A stretch of DNA of 64,000 bases, from positions 124,001-188,000 of the forward strand of contig JAICWO010000002.1 of the NCBI GenBank assembly GCA_025934775.1. Reading direction: 5' to 3'. The notes beneath the pieces are model-generated. The model did no database searches. It was given only the letters and a program-made list of their open reading frames with translations, and was not told where the DNA came from. Below, piece after piece: positions 13,318 through 54,053 of this stretch; position 1 is the stretch's first letter, and each line of letters starts with the position of its first letter. The position numbers and the translations under genes are program-made. The stretch is from Gemmatimonadaceae bacterium. GTDB lineage: Bacteria; Gemmatimonadota; Gemmatimonadetes; Gemmatimonadales; Gemmatimonadaceae.

Positions 13318-15387
13318 TCAGCGCAGCCGAAGCTCGAAGCGAATGACGCGTCCCGGTTGCGGCAGCCCACACTGATCGTAGATCGTCTCGTCGCCGGCGT
13401 CGTCCGCGGCGATCGTGCTCTCGATCGAACGAAACCAACTCCGCGCCGCGTCGCGACGCGTCCACCGCCGCGACAGTGCGACGCTCGTGCGCGCGCTCGC
13501 CGCCAGCCGGTCGTAGCCCGTCGGACTCGACGCATCGACACAATACTGGGTGCCGACCATGCGCGTCCCGAGCGAGAGCTCGGCGCCGAGGGGTACGGGC
13601 GCCGACGCGCGCACGCCGCCGGCGAACTTGGGCTGATACTCGGCGCGATAGTCCTGCGCCGCGGCGGGGTTGCGGCCCGTCACGGACTGGGCGGTCACGT
13701 CGCCGCCGATGCTGGCGGGGCCGAGCGGCACCGAGGCGAGCAGCTCCACGCCCGTGCTCGTGGTCCGGTCGCGGTTGATGCGCTCGACCTTCTTGGCGGC
13801 GGTGGTGCTCGAGACGATCTCGTCGTGGATCTCGTTGTGGAAGAGGACACCCTGGAGCTGCGCGGCGCCCGCGCCGACCGTGGCGCCCGCCTCGGTGGCG
13901 ACCATCTGCTCCGGGCGCAGGTTCGGGTTCGGCTGGATCATATTGAGTGGACCTGAATACAACTCTCGTAATGATGGAAATCGTACACGGCGGTTGACGC
14001 CGGCGTGCAGCAGGACGCGGCCGCCGTCTGTGGCGCCGGTGAGGCCGAGCCGGCCGCCCCAGGCGTGGAGCGTGCCCACGGCCGGCTTGCCCGCGGTGTC
14101 CGGCGTGTCGGCCGCGTCGAGCGCGACGCCGGCGCTCGCGCGCAGCGCCGACAGGCTCGCGACGTTCGGGAGCCGCCATCCCAGCTCCGTGGCCCCGCTC
14201 CAGAGGCGCTGGCTGTAGTCGGAGACGCCGCCCGGCGCGAGCGCCTCGTGCCGCCGCACGTCCGCGTACGTCGCGGCGGCGTGGAGGTCGCCGCCGCCCG
14301 CGATCGTCTGATCCGCGACGATGCGACTCGTGAGATCGTGATCGTCGTCCGCTTCGCGGCTCTTGATCGTGGTGTACGTCCGCGCGGTGAATCCATTCAG
14401 CTCCGTGCGGCCGCCGTCGTAGCCGACGTTGGCCTCGAGCGAGCCCCACCCGCCGAATGGCGAGCGGCGCGCGCCGCTGCCGAGCGAGAGCACGGAGAAG
14501 CTTCGGCGCTCGGCGGGATACTGGAGCAATTGCGGCGACTTCGATCCGATCTCCGCCGGCACGCCGCGCCGCGCGGAATAGCCGGACGACGAGAGCGACA
14601 TCCACCCGCCGCCGTCGCCTTCGTACCGCGCGGCGAGGTAGCCGTCGCCCTGCTCGCCGTACGAGTTGAGGCGCGTGTCGCGAGCGGTATACGGCGGCGG
14701 TTCGGTCGCGCCGGGCGGCAGCGGGAATCCAAGACTGTGACGATAGCCCCCGCCCGCGCGCACGAGCAGCGTGCCGGAGCCGGCGCGATCCTCGACGTTC
14801 ACGCCGGACGCGAGGCGATACGCGCCGGTGTGGTCGATGCCGGAGTCGAAGCGCAGGTGATCGGAATCCGCGTCGGCGAGCGGAACGCGTGCGATGCCCA
14901 CGTCCACGACGCCGCCGAGCACGTTGGGGCCGTAGAGCAGCGACGGCAGTCCGCGCACGACGGTGAGCGTTTGCGCGCCGGTGGCGGGGAGCAGCGACAG
15001 GTCGGCGCGATGATCGAAGTTGAGGCTCATCGGCACGCCGTCGACGAGCACCGCGACCTCGCGCGCGTTGAAGCTCGAGCCGCGAAGCGCGAAGTACGCC
15101 TCGCCGCGCGGATTGGTGCGCACCTGCATGAACGGCACGTCGCGCAGCGCCTGGTCGAGCGTCGGCGCGACGGGAATGTGCAGCGAGTCCAGTCGAATTT
15201 GCAGCGCGCTGCCGCCATCGCCCGTCGCGATCGCGCGCAGCGCCTGAACGCGCACGCCGGGGAGATGATACGCCGTGTCGGTGTTCGCGCTGTCGGCGCG
15301 TGCCTGGGCGCGTGTCTGGGCGCGCGCGGACGACGCGGCGAGCGCCAGCAGCGCGCCGGCGAACGCGGTGATGTGGCGGGAGGGCAT
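13318..15387 (-). CDS. TonB-dependent outer-membrane receptor
   Basis: A 689-residue receptor that should import a metal chelate, cofactor or sugar across the outer membrane with TonB/ExbBD energy. The ATG at 15387 starts a signal peptide (MPSRHITAFAGALLALAASS... ARAQ). Residues about 55-165 form the plug domain, with DQALRDVPFMQVRTNPRGEA, FALRGSSFNAREVAVLVDGV and VVRGLPSLLYGPNVLGGVV, the usual plug signature order. The rest is a 22-strand-type barrel ending in VIRFELRLR. Segment RFPSLRELYSGPLNMI followed by NPNLRPEQMVATEAG is the conserved TonB_dep_Rec box. It diverges from a multicopper oxidase; copper or iron handling would be a reasonable but unproven link. One A/T-rich rare-codon patch lies at 13938-13985. 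Confidence 0.9.
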   Translation of the reverse strand: MPSRHITAFAGALLALAASSARAQTRAQARADSANTDTAYHLPGVRVQALRAIATGDGGSALQIRLDSLHIPVAPTLDQALRDVPFMQVRTNPRGEAYFALRGSSFNAREVAVLVDGVPMSLNFDHRADLSLLPATGAQTLTVVRGLPSLLYGPNVLGGVVDVGIARVPLADADSDHLRFDSGIDHTGAYRLASGVNVEDRAGSGTLLVRAGGGYRHSLGFPLPPGATEPPPYTARDTRLNSYGEQGDGYLAARYEGDGGGWMSLSSSGYSARRGVPAEIGSKSPQLLQYPAERRSFSVLSLGSGARRSPFGGWGSLEANVGYDGGRTELNGFTARTYTTIKSREADDDHDLTSRIVADQTIAGGGDLHAAATYADVRRHEALAPGGVSDYSQRLWSGATELGWRLPNVASLSALRASAGVALDAADTPDTAGKPAVGTLHAWGGRLGLTGATDGGRVLLHAGVNRRVRFPSLRELYSGPLNMIQPNPNLRPEQMVATEAGATVGAGAAQLQGVLFHNEIHDEIVSSTTAAKKVERINRDRTTSTGVELLASVPLGPASIGGDVTAQSVTGRNPAAAQDYRAEYQPKFAGGVRASAPVPLGAELSLGTRMVGTQYCVDASSPTGYDRLAASARTSVALSRRWTRRDAARSWFRSIESTIAADDAGDETIYDQCGLPQPGRVIRFELRLR

Positions 15388-17526: not shown

Positions 17527-17608
17527 GTCATCCCGAGCGGAGTTGCCGCGCGGCTCCGCTCGGGATGACAAGTGTGGGAAGCCGCTGTGCGGCTCCGCTC
17601 GGGATGAC
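17527..17608. repeat. GTCATCCCGA-type palindromic repeat between convergent genes
   Basis: A perfect 16-bp inverted repeat, GTCATCCCGAGCGGAG at 17527-17542 and its complement at 17554-17569. A second direct copy of the right arm follows at 17593-17608. It lies between the stops of the multicopper oxidase and the efflux channel gene. The hairpin could stop transcription from either side, but there is no T-run. A related element is at 49117-49206. Confidence 0.75.
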
Positions 17609-29474: not shown

Positions 29475-31220
29475 ATGCGCTCGCTCTCGTTTCTCGCCCT
29501 CGCCGCCGGCTCGTTCGCGGCGCTCTCCTGCCGCCCAGCGGCACGCGCCGGCAGCGCAGCGGTACCGTCCGTCCAAGCCGCGGCGTTCCCGGCGGGATGG
29601 TCGGTCAAGCATCGGCGCGAGCCGGTCCTCGCCGAGCACGGCATCGTGGTGAGCAACAGCGATCTCGCGAGCGCCGCGGGCGCCGAGATCATGAAGAAGG
29701 GTGGCAACGCGGTCGACGCCGCCGTCGCGACCGGCTTCGCGCTCGCGGTGACCTATCCGTTCGCCGGCAACATCGGCGGCGGCGGGTTCATGGTCATCCA
29801 CATGGCCGACGGTCGCGCGGCGGCGATCGATTACCGCGAGGTCGCGCCGCTCGCCGCCACTCGCGACATGTACATCGACGCGAACGGCAAGCTCACGAAG
29901 AAGAGCCTCGTCGGCGCGCTCGCGGTCGGCGTGCCGGGCGCGGTCGCCGGGATGGCCGACGCGCTGGCGAAGTACGGCACGATGTCACTGCACGACGTGA
30001 TGCAGCCGGCGATCCGGCTCGCCGCCGAGGGTTTCGCGGTCGATTCGTCTCTTTATGAATCTCTAAACCGCAGCCGCCGCTTGATCGGACAGTTCGACGG
30101 CGCGAAGGTCTTCCTCCCGAACGGGCAGGCGCCCGCGCCCGGGACGATGCTCGAGCAGCCGGATCTCGCGCGCACGCTCACGCTGATCGCGAACGAGGGG
30201 CCCAAAGCGTTCTACGACGGCCCGATCGCCGACGCGCTCGTGGCCGAGCAGAAGAAGGACGGCGGGATCATCACGAAGGAAGACCTCGCGCGCTATAGAC
30301 CGATCGAGCGCCAGCCGATCGTCGGCACGTATCGCGGCTACACGCTGTACACGATGCCGCCGTCGTCATCCGGCGGCATCACGATGCTCGAAACGCTGAA
30401 TCAGCTCGAGACGTGGCCGTCGCTTCCGCCGTTCGGCAGCGCGGAGTACACGCATCTCGTCGCCGAGGCGTTTCGGCGCGCGTTCGTCGATCGCAACGAG
30501 AAGCTCGGCGACCCGGCCTTCGTCAAAGTTCCGGTGGCCGAGCTCACGAGCAAGGCGTACGCGAAGAAGCTCGCGTCGACGATCGACCCGCACCACGCGA
30601 CGCGCTCGCCGACGTTCAGCGCGGCCGCCGAGCCGATGCACACGACGCACTACTCCGTCGTGGACGGCCAGGGGAACGCCGTCGCGACGACGACGACGCT
30701 CAACAGCGGGTACGGCTCCGGCGCGTACGTCGCGGGCCCGGGCGGCGGCTTCTTCCTCAACGACGAGATGGACGACTTCGCGTCGGAGCCGGGCAAACCG
30801 AACCAATTCGGCCTCGTGCAGGGCGAGGCGAACGCGATCCAGCCGGGCAAGCGCATGCTGAGCGCGATGTCGCCGACGATCGTGCTCGGCAAGGACGGCA
30901 AGGTGCTGCTCGTGGTCGGCGCGGCGGGCGGCCCGACGATCATCACGGCGGTGACGCAGGTGATCCTCAACGTCATCGATCAGCACATGACGATCGCGGA
31001 CGCGATGTACGCGCCGCGCATCCACCACCAGGCGTGGCCGGACTCGCTCGAGTACGAGCAGGGCGGGCTGAGTCAGCCGGTGATCGACTCGCTGGAGGCG
31101 ATGGGGCATCATCTGCATTCGATTCGCTCATTAGCGAACTCGAATGCGATCATGCGGGGGGAGCACGGGTGGCTCGGCGTCGTGGAGCCGAGAAGCACGG
31201 GAGGAGCGGCCGGCTATTGA
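29475..31220 (+). CDS. ggt: Gamma-glutamyltransferase (glutathione hydrolase), exported
   Basis: A 581-residue Ntn-hydrolase that cleaves the gamma-glutamyl bond of glutathione and similar compounds in the periplasm. It is made as a precursor that cuts itself before the catalytic Thr, here Thr390 in TTHYSVVDGQGNAVA. Other family segments are present: NAVDAAVATGFALAVTYPF, NIGGGGFMVIH, DYREVAP, GSGAYVAGPGGGFFLNDEMDDF and MLSAMSPTIVL. The ATG at 29475 begins a probable lipoprotein signal (FAALSC); ATGs at 29409 and 29448 are in frame but give poorer signals, so the start is uncertain. A near-perfect hairpin (31115-31147) lies near the 3' end within an A/T-rich patch. Confidence 0.93.
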   Translation: MRSLSFLALAAGSFAALSCRPAARAGSAAVPSVQAAAFPAGWSVKHRREPVLAEHGIVVSNSDLASAAGAEIMKKGGNAVDAAVATGFALAVTYPFAGNIGGGGFMVIHMADGRAAAIDYREVAPLAATRDMYIDANGKLTKKSLVGALAVGVPGAVAGMADALAKYGTMSLHDVMQPAIRLAAEGFAVDSSLYESLNRSRRLIGQFDGAKVFLPNGQAPAPGTMLEQPDLARTLTLIANEGPKAFYDGPIADALVAEQKKDGGIITKEDLARYRPIERQPIVGTYRGYTLYTMPPSSSGGITMLETLNQLETWPSLPPFGSAEYTHLVAEAFRRAFVDRNEKLGDPAFVKVPVAELTSKAYAKKLASTIDPHHATRSPTFSAAAEPMHTTHYSVVDGQGNAVATTTTLNSGYGSGAYVAGPGGGFFLNDEMDDFASEPGKPNQFGLVQGEANAIQPGKRMLSAMSPTIVLGKDGKVLLVVGAAGGPTIITAVTQVILNVIDQHMTIADAMYAPRIHHQAWPDSLEYEQGGLSQPVIDSLEAMGHHLHSIRSLANSNAIMRGEHGWLGVVEPRSTGGAAGY

Positions 31221-31673
31221 CGGCTGACGGCGCAAACCACGAACGGCGCTGACCTCCAAACTGCGCCGACTTCCGAACGGCGCTGACTTCCGAACGGCGC
31301 TACGCTTCCAAACGGCGCTGACCTCCAAACGGCGCAGCCTGCGGCAGACCCATAACGGCGCAAACAACCAACTGCGCAAGGGCAAACCGCGGGGCGGGCG
31401 CGGCGCTGCGCGCGCGCCCGCTGCAGCCTGCCCCGTCACTCGCCGTTCGCCGTTGCGCCGTTCGGCGCCGCTCGCAGCTGCGCCGTCGCCCGCCGTCTGC
31501 TTCTTGCGCCGCTATGTGTCTGCCGAACGGCGCAGCCGTTCGTGCCGCGCCGTTCGGAAGCGTCGCGCCGTTCGGAAGTCCGCGCCGTTTGGAAGTCAGC
31601 GCCGTACGGAAGTCAGCGCCATTCGGAAGTCCGCGCAGTTGGTTCTTTGCGCCGTTAGTTGTTAACGTCGTTA
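31214..31673. repeat. Inverted pair of 17-bp tandem-repeat arrays
   Basis: The left half carries about five head-to-tail copies of a 17-bp unit close to GAACGGCGCTGACTTCC (about 31240-31330). The right half carries about five copies of the complement, GCGCCGTTCGGAAGTCC (about 31545-31640). Flanks also pair: AGACCCATAACGGCGCAA in the left half with TTGCGCCGCTATGTGTCT in the right, and ACGGCGCAAACCACGAACGG with its counterpart at the right end. The whole 460 bp could fold into one long imperfect hairpin with a loop near 31390-31440. It fills the gap between ggt and the M28 peptidase gene. Confidence 0.85.
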
Positions 31674-31674
31674 C

Positions 31675-33255
31675 ATGCGCCCTTTCCCGATTCTAGCCCT
31701 CGCGGCCTTCGCCGTTGCGCCGTCTGCCCTCCTCGCCCAGTCCAACCCGACCAACGACTCGGTTGTCGCAAAGATCTACGACGAGGGCATGCATCATTCG
31801 CAGGCACCTCGGCTCGCCCAGGTGCTGATGGATTCCATCGGCCCGCGCCTCACCGGCTCCGCCGCCAATCGCGCCGCGAATGATTGGCTGCTCCGCACGT
31901 ACAAGGCGTGGGGCATCGACGCGAAGAACGAGCAGTACGGCACCTGGCGCGACTGGACCCGTGGCGTGAGCGGGCTGTCGCTGATCTCGCCCCGCACCCG
32001 CGTGCTCGAGGCGACGATGCATGCGTGGAGCGCGACGACGCCCGTCGGCGGCGTGACCGCGGACGTCGTCGTTCCGCCGCCCGCGTCCGAGGTCGGTGAC
32101 AGCGCGGGATTCGCGCGCTGGCTCGCGGGAGTGAAGGGGAAGCTCGTGCTCATCAGCGTGCCGCAGGTCTCGTGTCGTCCGGACTCCGACATCAAGTTCT
32201 GGGCGGATTCGGCGGTGTACGCGCATGCGCGAGCGGAGCGCGACAGCGTCGCGCGCGACTGGCAAGCGCGGTTCGCGGCGGCGCACGTCAATCCGCGCAC
32301 GTTCCCGCAGATGCTCGAGCGCGCGGGGGCCGCGGGCGTGCTCTCGAACACGTGGTCGCGCGGCTGGGGCGTGGACAAGATCCAATCGGCGCGTGCGTCG
32401 ACTATTCCATCGTTCGACGTCTCGTGCGAGGACTATTCGCTGCTCGCACGGCTCGCCGAGCACGGGCAGCATCCACGTGTGCATGCGGTGGCGGAGGCGA
32501 CGGTCGCGCCGAAGGAGTCGCCCGTATTCAACACCGTCGCGCAGATCCGCGGCACGGAGAAGCCCAGTGAATACGTGATGCTCTCGGCGCACCTCGATTC
32601 GTGGGACACCGGCAGCGGCGCGACGGACAACGGCACCGGCACGATCACGATGCTCGAGGCAATGAGGATTCTGAAATTATCATATCCGCATCCCAAGCGG
32701 ACGATCCTCGTCGGGCACTGGAGCGGGGAGGAGGAGGGCGACATCGGGTCCAACGCGTTCGCGGCCGATCATCCGGAGGTCCTGAAGGGGCTGCAGGTCC
32801 TCTTCAATCAGGACAACGGGACGGGTGAGATCGATACCGTGCAGACGAACGGCTTCGTCAACGCGGCGCCGGCGCTCGCGCGCTGGATGTCGGCGATGCC
32901 GCTCGACCTGCTCAAGAACGTGACGCTGATGACGCCGGGCGTCGCGCACAACGAGAGCACCGACAGCGACGCGTTCGACTGCCGCAACGCGCCGGGCATC
33001 TTCCTCACGTCGTCGGACTGGTCGTATACCGACTACACGTGGCACACCCAGCGCGACACCTACGACAAGGTGAACTTCGATGAGGTCGAGCGAAACGCGA
33101 CCATGATCGCCGAGTTCGCGTACGAGGCGTCGGAGGATCCGAACATGATCGCGCGGACGCCGCGAGTGCCGGGCGTGGGGCGGCGCGGCGGGGCGGCGGG
33201 GGTGCCGGCGTGCGATCAGGCGCCGCGGAGCTGGGCGACGGCGACACGGCGGTAG
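31675..33255 (+). CDS. Secreted M28-family zinc aminopeptidase
   Basis: A 526-residue exported peptidase: signal peptide MRPFPILALAAFAVAPSALLAQ, an N-terminal part with a PA-like insert (about 110-270), then the M28 catalytic domain. Di-zinc ligands appear as His306 in SAHLDSWDTGSG, Asp318 in GATDNGTG, and Glu352-Glu353 in WSGEEEGD. Further ones are Asp in FNQDNGTGEI and His in TWHTQRDTYDKV. Members remove N-terminal residues from peptides. The gene starts two bases after the inverted repeat array, so its promoter or leader must lie in or be replaced by that array. An A/T-rich codon patch sits at 32661-32687. Confidence 0.92.
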   Translation: MRPFPILALAAFAVAPSALLAQSNPTNDSVVAKIYDEGMHHSQAPRLAQVLMDSIGPRLTGSAANRAANDWLLRTYKAWGIDAKNEQYGTWRDWTRGVSGLSLISPRTRVLEATMHAWSATTPVGGVTADVVVPPPASEVGDSAGFARWLAGVKGKLVLISVPQVSCRPDSDIKFWADSAVYAHARAERDSVARDWQARFAAAHVNPRTFPQMLERAGAAGVLSNTWSRGWGVDKIQSARASTIPSFDVSCEDYSLLARLAEHGQHPRVHAVAEATVAPKESPVFNTVAQIRGTEKPSEYVMLSAHLDSWDTGSGATDNGTGTITMLEAMRILKLSYPHPKRTILVGHWSGEEEGDIGSNAFAADHPEVLKGLQVLFNQDNGTGEIDTVQTNGFVNAAPALARWMSAMPLDLLKNVTLMTPGVAHNESTDSDAFDCRNAPGIFLTSSDWSYTDYTWHTQRDTYDKVNFDEVERNATMIAEFAYEASEDPNMIARTPRVPGVGRRGGAAGVPACDQAPRSWATATRR

Positions 33256-52406: not shown

Positions 52407-54053
52407 TCATTGCGGCGCGGTCAGCGTGAGCTGACCGTCCGCCCCCCTGGACAATTCTCCGGCGAAGAGACCGAGCTGCTTGCGCCGCCACCACGCGCCG
52501 GTCTCCTCGTGGGTGCGCCAATCGGTGAACCAGTACTGCCAGAGCACCGTGCGCACGCGCGGCGGTGGATGGCCCTTGAAGGGATCGTCGCGAAAGAGCC
52601 GCAGCACGCTCGGGCTGCCCTCGATCAGCCGCGCCTGCGTGTTGAGCACCCACGGCGAATCCTGCCACGGCGCGAGCGACGCGAACCACAGATTCCACTC
52701 GAAGCGCGGATGATACGGCGCGTACACGCCGGGCCGCTCCATGGGATTCTGCGGTTTGTACCGGAAGGGATACGCGATCCACGTCTTGCCGCCGTCTGCG
52801 CTGCCCTGGAACTCGATCTCGTAGCGCGCGGGAGTCATGGTCGCGAACAGGCCGTACGCGTTGGCGATGCGGAACGGATCGAGCCAGCGGGCGGGGGAGC
52901 GGAGGATGGAGTCGGAGGGGGCGGCGAAGGCGGAGATGCTGGTATAGAACAGGACGCAGAGAAAGAGGGTGGAGGCGCGAGTGCGCCAGGCTAACGGTGC
53001 GGGCGGCCTCTCTGTGCGGTCGCTGTCGTTGTGCGTTGACCGTTGTGCGTTTTCCGTGAACCCGTTGGACTGAGCGCCGGGGCGCCGACGGAGCCACAGA
53101 GAACGGAAGACGGAAAACGCACGACGACAGCGACCGCCGGAACGAAGCCACCGCGCCGTTCGCTCGAACACCCCATCATCGAGCAGCAGCACCCCCAGCA
53201 TCAGCACCAGATAATTCAAAAACGCATAATTGGCCGTCGCGATGATGCCGGTCTGCAGCGCGGTCACGCCCGCCGCGCAGAGCAGCCGGAACGGCCGCGG
53301 CAGGAAGACCGCCCAGACCACGAACAGCTCGATGCCGAGCGTGATGATCACGGTCGCGGCGTGGTACCAGTGCGGCAGGTGCTGGATGTACCAGCCGGGC
53401 CACGCCGGCAGCGGGCCGTTCTGGTAGTAGTCGTCCATCGCCGTGAGATTGCGCCAGTGCGGGTCGCCGCTCGCCAACTTCACGATCCCCGACTCGAAGT
53501 AGATGCGAAACCACTCCCACCGGAGCATGAAGAGGCTGACGCGCGACGGCGGATGGGTCGCGCCGAGGCCGGGGCGCGCGCCGGCGGGGGCGAAGAAGAT
53601 CGAGAGGAGGCCTGCTTCGAGCAGCATCCCGTCGGACTGATACGACGAGAAGACCTGCAGCGTCGTGATGCACGAGAGAAAGAGCGCCGTCGCGAGGCCG
53701 ATCGTGACACGGGGCCAGACGTTGAGCGTGATCAGGATCGAGCAGAGCAGGCCGGCCGCCAGAACCAGCGTCAGCGCGCCGTCGCTCGCATTGAGCCAGA
53801 ACAGGCTCGGAAAATCCCAGAAGCGCGCGAGCCCGGGCACCGCCTGACGTGCTTCGGCGAGATAGCGGCCTTGCGGAAGGATGCCGCGCGATCCGATCAA
53901 CCCGTGGATCTGCAGCGCGAGCGAGTAGAACGCGGAGAGGAAGATGAGGCCGAGCGCGCGGAGCCAGATCCATCGCGGCCAGAGATAGCCCGCGCCGCTC
54001 CCGGGCGACGCGAGATGCCGGATGTACGAGTCGATGCGCTCGGCGGCGGTCAT
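52407..54053 (-). CDS. Lipase maturation factor-like membrane protein
   Basis: A 548-residue polytopic protein like lipase maturation factor (LMF1) relatives. N-terminal helices carry WPRWIWLRALGLIFLSAFYS, SDGMLLEAGLLSIFFAP, LFMLRWEWFRIYFESGIVKL and LTAMDDYYQNGPLPAW. The C-terminal soluble part has YEIEFQGSADGGKTWIAYPF, PHHPRFEWNLWFASL-like and VRTVLWQYWFTDW strings. In animals the family helps fold lipases in the ER; its bacterial role is unknown. About 40 residues between helices (RCRRAFSVFRSLWLRRRPGA onward) are translated from an inserted palindromic element. The ATG at 54053 is preferred because the -10 is 11 bp before it; a GTG at 54074 lies upstream of that -10. Confidence 0.85.
   Translation of the reverse strand: MTAAERIDSYIRHLASPGSGAGYLWPRWIWLRALGLIFLSAFYSLALQIHGLIGSRGILPQGRYLAEARQAVPGLARFWDFPSLFWLNASDGALTLVLAAGLLCSILITLNVWPRVTIGLATALFLSCITTLQVFSSYQSDGMLLEAGLLSIFFAPAGARPGLGATHPPSRVSLFMLRWEWFRIYFESGIVKLASGDPHWRNLTAMDDYYQNGPLPAWPGWYIQHLPHWYHAATVIITLGIELFVVWAVFLPRPFRLLCAAGVTALQTGIIATANYAFLNYLVLMLGVLLLDDGVFERTARWLRSGGRCRRAFSVFRSLWLRRRPGAQSNGFTENAQRSTHNDSDRTERPPAPLAWRTRASTLFLCVLFYTSISAFAAPSDSILRSPARWLDPFRIANAYGLFATMTPARYEIEFQGSADGGKTWIAYPFRYKPQNPMERPGVYAPYHPRFEWNLWFASLAPWQDSPWVLNTQARLIEGSPSVLRLFRDDPFKGHPPPRVRTVLWQYWFTDWRTHEETGAWWRRKQLGLFAGELSRGADGQLTLTAPQ
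53018..53135. repeat. Palindromic element inside the LMF-like reading frame
   Basis: GGTCGCTGTCGTTGTGCGTT (53018-53037) and TTGTGCGTTTTCCGT (53043-53057) pair with the arm at 53110-53135, which reads ACGGAAAACGCAC then GACGACAGCGACC. The left side contains a partial tandem duplication of GTTGTGCGTT. It keeps the frame open across about 40 codons in a loop between membrane helices. Confidence 0.75.

Follow-up and report, generated by a model that had tools for sequence, protein, structure and literature searches.

What is the long hairpin that fills the gap between two co-directional genes, ggt and an M28 peptidase gene, in a Gemmatimonadota genome, and how did it come to be there? In the window, i.e., the whole 64-kb stretch of DNA that was analysed, ggt (gamma-glutamyltranspeptidase, PF01019, Pfam E = 3e-168) occupies positions 29499-31220 of the plus strand, its start being approximate, and the M28 peptidase gene (PF04389, Pfam E = 1e-32) positions 31675-33255 of the same strand. 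Between them, at 31221-31661, repeat and fold analysis places a long hairpin of inverted 17-bp arrays, for which an initial annotation of this DNA had offered two origins: a duplication-inversion followed by drift, or selection for structure. Here, the hairpin is read, with a probability of roughly 0.7, as an ORF-less (non-autonomous) copy of a dispersed element, similar to both the intervening sequences (IVSs) of 23S rRNA and to REPINs, whose likely partner is a four-helix bundle (4HB) protein.

Structure and borders of the hairpin

The left arm (31221-31363, plus strand) begins directly after the ggt stop codon (TGA, 31218-31220), which forms the left edge of the element. It consists of outer units, GACGGCGCAAACCACG, five 17/18-bp AACGGCGCTGACNTCC units at 31242-31327, and an inner conserved block, AACGGCGCAGCCTGCGGCAGACCCATAACGGCGCAA. 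These five AACGGCGCTGACTTCC-like units face five complementary units at 31546-31632 in the right arm (31506-31661), which is the complement of the left one and whose outer units extend to TTAGTTGTT. The loop (31364-31505) is GC-rich, with secondary hairpins in the predicted fold, and tblastn detects no ORF relic in it. The best ungapped inverted pair (31240-31318 with 31547-31625) covers 79 nt and is 87% complementary. Pairing continues beyond the arrays, both outward (31217-31300 with 31582-31665, 81% complementary) and inward, where the 31328-31363 block is complementary to 31506-31536. The RNA fold of 31180-31700 reaches -320.9 kcal/mol, versus -237.8 ± 6.5 for shuffled sequences (z = -12.8, with none of 100 shuffles equalling it), and no other inverted repeat in the window comes near it in strength (154 bits, versus 68 for the runner-up and at most 45 for codon-block shuffles). 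The initial annotation thus described the architecture correctly: the inverted 17-bp arrays can form a large hairpin, and their flanks also pair across the centre. Its exclusion of a CRISPR array also stands, the units being arranged head to tail and inverted, without unrelated spacers, as does that of a simple satellite. The pairing of the arms and the position between ggt and M28 were likewise read correctly. An Rfam search of the 64-kb window gave no match.

The right border needs correction. The hairpin had been said to abut the M28 start by two bases. Element sequence is recognisable up to about 31661, and the M28 ATG stands at 31675; because the last ~13 nt before this ATG look like pre-M28 sequence in relatives (alignment by eye), the element probably ends ~13 nt, not 2 nt, short of the M28 gene.

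Copies of the element elsewhere in the genome

A genome search with the window element retrieves seven sites on five contigs, namely C20:65.4k, C20:155.2k (the window copy), C20:317.8k, C6:106.5k, C7:39.8-40.8k, C12:178.4k and C24:120.4k. The inverted repeats, the fold and the homology to these six other sites delimit the window structure as a complete, ORF-less member of a 17-bp-unit family. Its copies have units headed by AACGGCGC and share an inner conserved block that forms a small hairpin by itself; most of them combine an outer set of AACGGCGCAAACAACT type with an inner set of TGACTTCC type. Dispersed copies marking a mobile repeat had been named at the outset as grounds against the initial interpretation, and this picture is largely the one found, with seven copies, none of which occurs at the matching gene ends in the closest relatives. 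If a tandem satellite had been duplicated and inverted in place and had then drifted, without any mobile partner, the divergence of the copies without covariation (see below) would fit such decay, but local events would not place the same multi-part arm (AACGGCGCAAACAACT outer set, TGACTTCC units and inner block) at seven unlinked sites. This origin is, therefore, contradicted and very improbable.

The copy on contig C7 (about C7:39750-40806) is longer, and its loop holds a 134-aa ORF, P0001. The protein matches PF05635 (23S rRNA-intervening sequence protein; E = 8e-17, 61.8 bits against a cut-off of 33.8) and TIGR02436 (four helix bundle protein; E = 4e-17). This 4HB gene, in the place that the loop takes in the window element, provides a link that was invisible from the window alone. 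When 16 4HB proteins were compared by tblastn with the six ORF-less copies, including that of the window, no ORF remnant was found; ORF-bearing and ORF-less copies have their arms in common and no internal ORF remnant. Viral carriage of P0001 was also considered and rejected, no relative being found in the viral contigs scanned.

The 17-bp unit tracks, in a suggestive manner, one clade of the protein. Among 59 genomes, P0001 homologues at E < 1e-18 are present in G000, G001, G005 and G024, and 17-bp array matches at E < 1e-9 occur in exactly these four. The chance of such a coincidence is 1 in 455,126 if genomes are independent; as three of the four share one genus, the link is suggestive and not conclusive. 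The three foreign P0001 homologues are themselves flanked by inverted arrays whose period is 16-17 bp and whose sequence is related (e.g., AACGGCGCTGACTGCCC in G005), and period 17 is restricted to this clade, with none among the other PF05635 loci tested. In G005, the homologues L306 (G005:C86), G005:C69 and G005:C7 each carry one in-frame stop and are apparently decaying ORF-bearing copies.

Pairing of the arms and gene ends in relatives

Selection for structure was the other origin initially put forward. Under a regulatory version of it, the host would have preserved the hairpin between ggt and M28 through compensatory changes, for use as a terminator, mRNA stabiliser or leader. Its very stable fold and its position exactly between stop and start codon fit this reading. 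Had compensatory changes accumulated since the spread of the copies, each left arm would be expected to find its best partner in the right arm of the same copy. In the 17-bp family, the mean arm-pairing score is 219.6 within copies versus 216.5 between copies (permutation p = 0.40), and in a second family (11 copies), variable pairs are formed at a frequency of 0.889 within versus 0.885 between copies (p = 0.21). Pairing despite unit variation had been taken as a possible sign of selection; with no arm-specific covariation in either family, this argument is not supported. The left arm of the window copy pairs best with the right arm of the C6 copy, a mosaic pattern that hints at exchange between copies.

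The gene ends of relatives were compared separately, and not as one empty site, since ggt and M28 are not adjacent in the relatives examined. The element is absent downstream of ggt in G003 and upstream of M28 in G003 and G004. The closest relative (ggt 80% identical) has a short ordinary stem after ggt, and the M28 orthologues of four same-genus genomes are preceded by different sequences. For the second hairpin family, the gene ends adjoining the copies carry no element in the relatives checked. Judging from these comparisons, the presence of the elements appears species-specific. Unrelated inverted arrays lie directly past the ggt stop codon in two other genera (G007, locus L135, and G008, locus L144), and a small unrelated one lies upstream of M28 in the congener G005 (L080); the same gene borders have thus been struck repeatedly by different families. 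Although these recurrent arrays would also suit a regulatory hairpin, it is at odds with the missing covariation, with the absences after ggt and before M28, and with the presence of family members at unrelated genes. In addition, no match to a sigma-70 promoter was found, and a terminator scan gave a single weak candidate site, which is no more than chance would yield. A regulatory origin is, overall, quite improbable.

Other PF05635 genes and hairpin families in the genome

The genome counts seven PF05635 genes, six of which are flanked by inverted arrays, each with its own arm sequence: the 17-bp unit on C7, GTGGATC units on C17, GAGAGTGGA-like units at C12:122k, GACGCGAGA-like units on C47, GGGTTGCGTGTTTCG-like units on C35 (C35:204.8k), and a 67-bp arm, 93% complementary, at C20:262.6k (C20:262570). 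An inverted-repeat scan of about 740 kb returned 54 strong inverted repeats, versus one in a shuffled 400-kb stretch, and many of the 54 have arms like those of one of the six PF05635 elements and no ORF. When searched against the whole genome, the arms of the five elements other than that of C7 gave 63 matches. At least 12 ORF-less copies, mostly of ~260 bp, belong to the C20:262.6k family, with inverted arms mostly at least 90% identical to the query, and the arms of the remaining array-flanked genes recur in several ORF-less hairpins each. Each array-flanked PF05635 gene is, therefore, the only ORF-bearing member seen in a family of otherwise ORF-less hairpins, a pattern that is less secure for the shortest-unit families, where it is based on arm similarity.

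The window contains a second, smaller ORF-less hairpin (53016-53137, plus strand; GCGGTCGCTGTCGTTGTGCGTT...AACGCACGACGACAGCGACCGC), whose arms resemble, by eye, those of the C35 PF05635 hairpin. It appears to be an ORF-less member of the family that has its ORF-bearing copy at C35:204.8k; further members lie at C47:123677 and C20:273420. Separately from these families, an abundant hairpin repeat, TGTCATCCCGAGCG...GAGTCGAGGGATCTGG, to which no PF05635 gene is linked here, has many copies in the 740 kb, e.g., at 17527-17569 of the window, at C47:9824-10288, 14640-15070 and 394293-394752, and at C20:41590, 80295, 101666 and 258785-259278. Other inverted-repeat families of about 140-540 bp, of GCGGACGCGGACTTCGGCGG / GAACGAGGCGCGGAA types, have no assigned partner gene (C20:13317-13857, C20:301695-301988, C47:172274-172589 and C47:227277-227415).

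PF05635 genes and inverted arrays across phyla

PF05635 was found in 64 of 121 Gemmatimonadota genomes, with up to 14 genes per genome, and eight columns are invariant among 16 aligned members (Q33, S40, N44, E47, G48, S67, E70 and L75). The 200 nt upstream and downstream of such genes were scored for how well they pair as inverted complements, and 404 neighbouring ORFs served as controls. The 99th control percentile is exceeded by 6/7 loci of this genome and by 16/20 and 24/28 loci of other genomes, assigned to Gemmatimonadota from named records, i.e., 46/55 for the phylum. In a multi-phylum set, 48/72 loci do so. Mann-Whitney tests give p values between 1e-4 and 7e-35, depending on the set, for loci that are only partly independent. 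With 500-nt flanks, a preceding version of the test gave 16/20 loci versus 0/129 controls above 34 and, for the multi-phylum set, 27/72 loci versus 3/241 controls above 40. The latter set was gathered by similarity to Gemmatimonadota proteins (a narrow profile) and is, thus, biased toward Gemmatimonadota-like proteins; one third of its loci lie at or under the 99th control percentile, and Chloroflexota, among several others, show a weak signal. Flanking arrays were read in Poribacteria, Cyanobacteria, Bacteroidota, Acidobacteriota, Planctomycetota, Nitrospirota and one CPR bacterium.

A significant tandem period was detected in 80 of the 86 loci whose arms are clear, and it is 7, 14 or 21 in 57 of these 80; the 17-bp arrays were judged by period scoring, an exact count of GGCGC spacing being too strict. 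Simple ORF calls around 28 moderate-GC loci give a co-directional upstream neighbour in 24/28 cases and a co-directional downstream neighbour in as many (24/28), with median gaps of 1.5 nt between stop codon and arm and 3.5 nt between arm and next start codon. Seven Gemmatimonadota species, from several genera, carry PF05635 genes with differing units at one and the same site (L124, L125 and L127-L131), by the end of a gene judged ychF-like from its sequence. Three of these loci pair internally (scores of 50-60) and not across loci (14-28), so the arm sequence turns over while pairing is present; in the other four, the gene has no arms around it but is followed by a local hairpin.

PF05635 genes are, therefore, strongly associated with flanking inverted arrays, mostly of 7-bp units, in many phyla. 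This association points to a poorly recognised class of hairpin elements, which are probably mobile. Ordinary MITEs, i.e., insertion sequence remnants served by a DDE or HUH transposase elsewhere, with the PF05635 gene of the C7 copy as a passenger, would likewise be of this size, have inverted ends, occur as dispersed copies without an ORF and be species-specific. The window family does share with MITEs its short, ORF-less, multi-copy format with inverted ends, but no transposase-bearing parent was found, and the only ORF in a copy with the same ends is PF05635. Moreover, PF05635 is the only protein inside such elements, in six independent families here and in many phyla, whereas a passenger would not be the part that stays constant. 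Insertion sequences do not typically end in arrays of 7- or 17-bp units, and a target-site duplication was not established, the copy junctions having been read by eye and the ends being blurred by arrays of varying length. The MITE explanation is, on this evidence, unlikely.

Proposed mode of spread

We infer that the 4HB protein mobilises these elements. It would recognise the folded arms, as RNA or as DNA, and may have to be supplied in trans before ORF-less copies can spread, the part ascribed to RAYTs in the case of REPINs. It could act as an enzyme or as a binding protein that relies on host machinery. Since the elements are sense-oriented and reach from a stop codon to the next start codon between co-directional genes, they would be co-transcribed with the host operon and fold in the mRNA, as IVSs do inside pre-rRNA. 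The ggt-M28 transcript would, in this way, gain a long hairpin open to RNase III-type cleavage, most likely without any dedicated host function.

Comparison with known systems

The PF05635 protein type is known from 23S rRNA IVSs, of which ORF-less forms exist, and is a distant relative of Avd of diversity-generating retroelements; we know of no catalytic activity or active site in PF05635. The likeness to Avd is that of a distant sequence relative, its model NF033474 matching one of three tested proteins at E = 1e-6, below its cut-off, and no reverse transcriptase was found in the interiors of the elements examined. The 23S rRNA IVSs with an S23/IVP protein (Coxiella and Leptospira) share with the present elements a hairpin of inverted ends, a PF05635 gene in the loop, and short tandem repeats adjacent to the ORF. 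In Coxiella, the IVS forms a hairpin in 23S rRNA, is excised by RNase III, and bears a PF05635-type ORF preceded by heptameric tandem repeats (GACAGAT; PMC4990558). The same paper assigns no function to PF05635 and calls it unclear how 23S intervening sequences arose (PMC4990558). Of the present elements, the C7 copy has such an ORF in its loop and the window copy has none. Unlike IVSs, the present elements lie between protein-coding genes, that of the window between ggt and M28 and not in a 23S gene (none was found in the assembly); their arms are tandem arrays, and they are multi-copy, with several families, each with its own arms, in one genome.

The REPIN/RAYT system consists of one protein-coding locus and many short palindromic, ORF-less intergenic copies. 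REPINs with their RAYT are the other nearest known system (PMC3116915), and the elements described here share with them a repeat-flanked protein-coding locus plus many short, ORF-less, palindromic intergenic copies. The partner would, however, be a 4HB protein without a known nuclease fold, and the arms are arrays of 7- or 17-bp units. A true REP/REPIN-type repeat, spread by a RAYT (Y1/HUH) transposase, would follow the same population logic, but it is hardly credible here: unit and length differ from those of REPs, and a search for PF01797 (Y1_Tnp) that detects 6/14 controls gave 0 matches at E <= 0.01 in this 99%-complete genome. The missing RAYT contradicts this origin, save for a gene in the ~1% that the assembly lacks.

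Heptameric intergenic repeats are known as GGGAATC in Xanthomonas, with 70-75 inverted pairs, and as GGGGA(C/T)T in Nostoc (PMC4692102), and TAACTGA repeats were described in Beggiatoaceae (PMC4679880). All of these repeats resemble the present arrays in being intergenic, built of 7-bp units and placed between aligned ORFs, near or overlapping stop codons; those of Xanthomonas and Nostoc often form inverted pairs. These papers treat the repeats as G-quadruplex or regulatory sequences and do not mention four-helix/S23 proteins (PMC4692102, PMC4679880). The Xanthomonas, Nostoc and Beggiatoaceae repeats seem to be arrays of the kind described here. Among solved structures, the nearest to the PF05635 family is that of XCC0516 (PDB 2gsc), a PF05635-like protein of Xanthomonas campestris (PMC4990558). 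A link between PF05635 and inverted arrays outside rRNA was not found in the open-access literature searched.

These comparisons allow a broader reading, offered tentatively and at somewhat less than even odds. In most bacteria that have them, PF05635 4HB proteins would partner a widespread class of selfish hairpins, which are built from inverted arrays of 7-bp (here 17-bp) units and insert into operons, in the gap that separates one stop codon from the following start codon. Each clade would recognise its own unit, ORF-less copies would spread in trans, and 23S rRNA IVSs would represent the rRNA-inserted branch. The consistent link between PF05635 and arrays outside rRNA gives the protein, and the 23S intervening sequences, a testable role: each protein is expected to bind its own arms, and strains are expected to differ by ORF-less hairpin insertions. 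It also offers one possible cause for several unexplained classes of short intergenic repeats, and the broader reading, if true, would also account for the heptameric repeats long known from intergenic regions of Xanthomonas and cyanobacteria.
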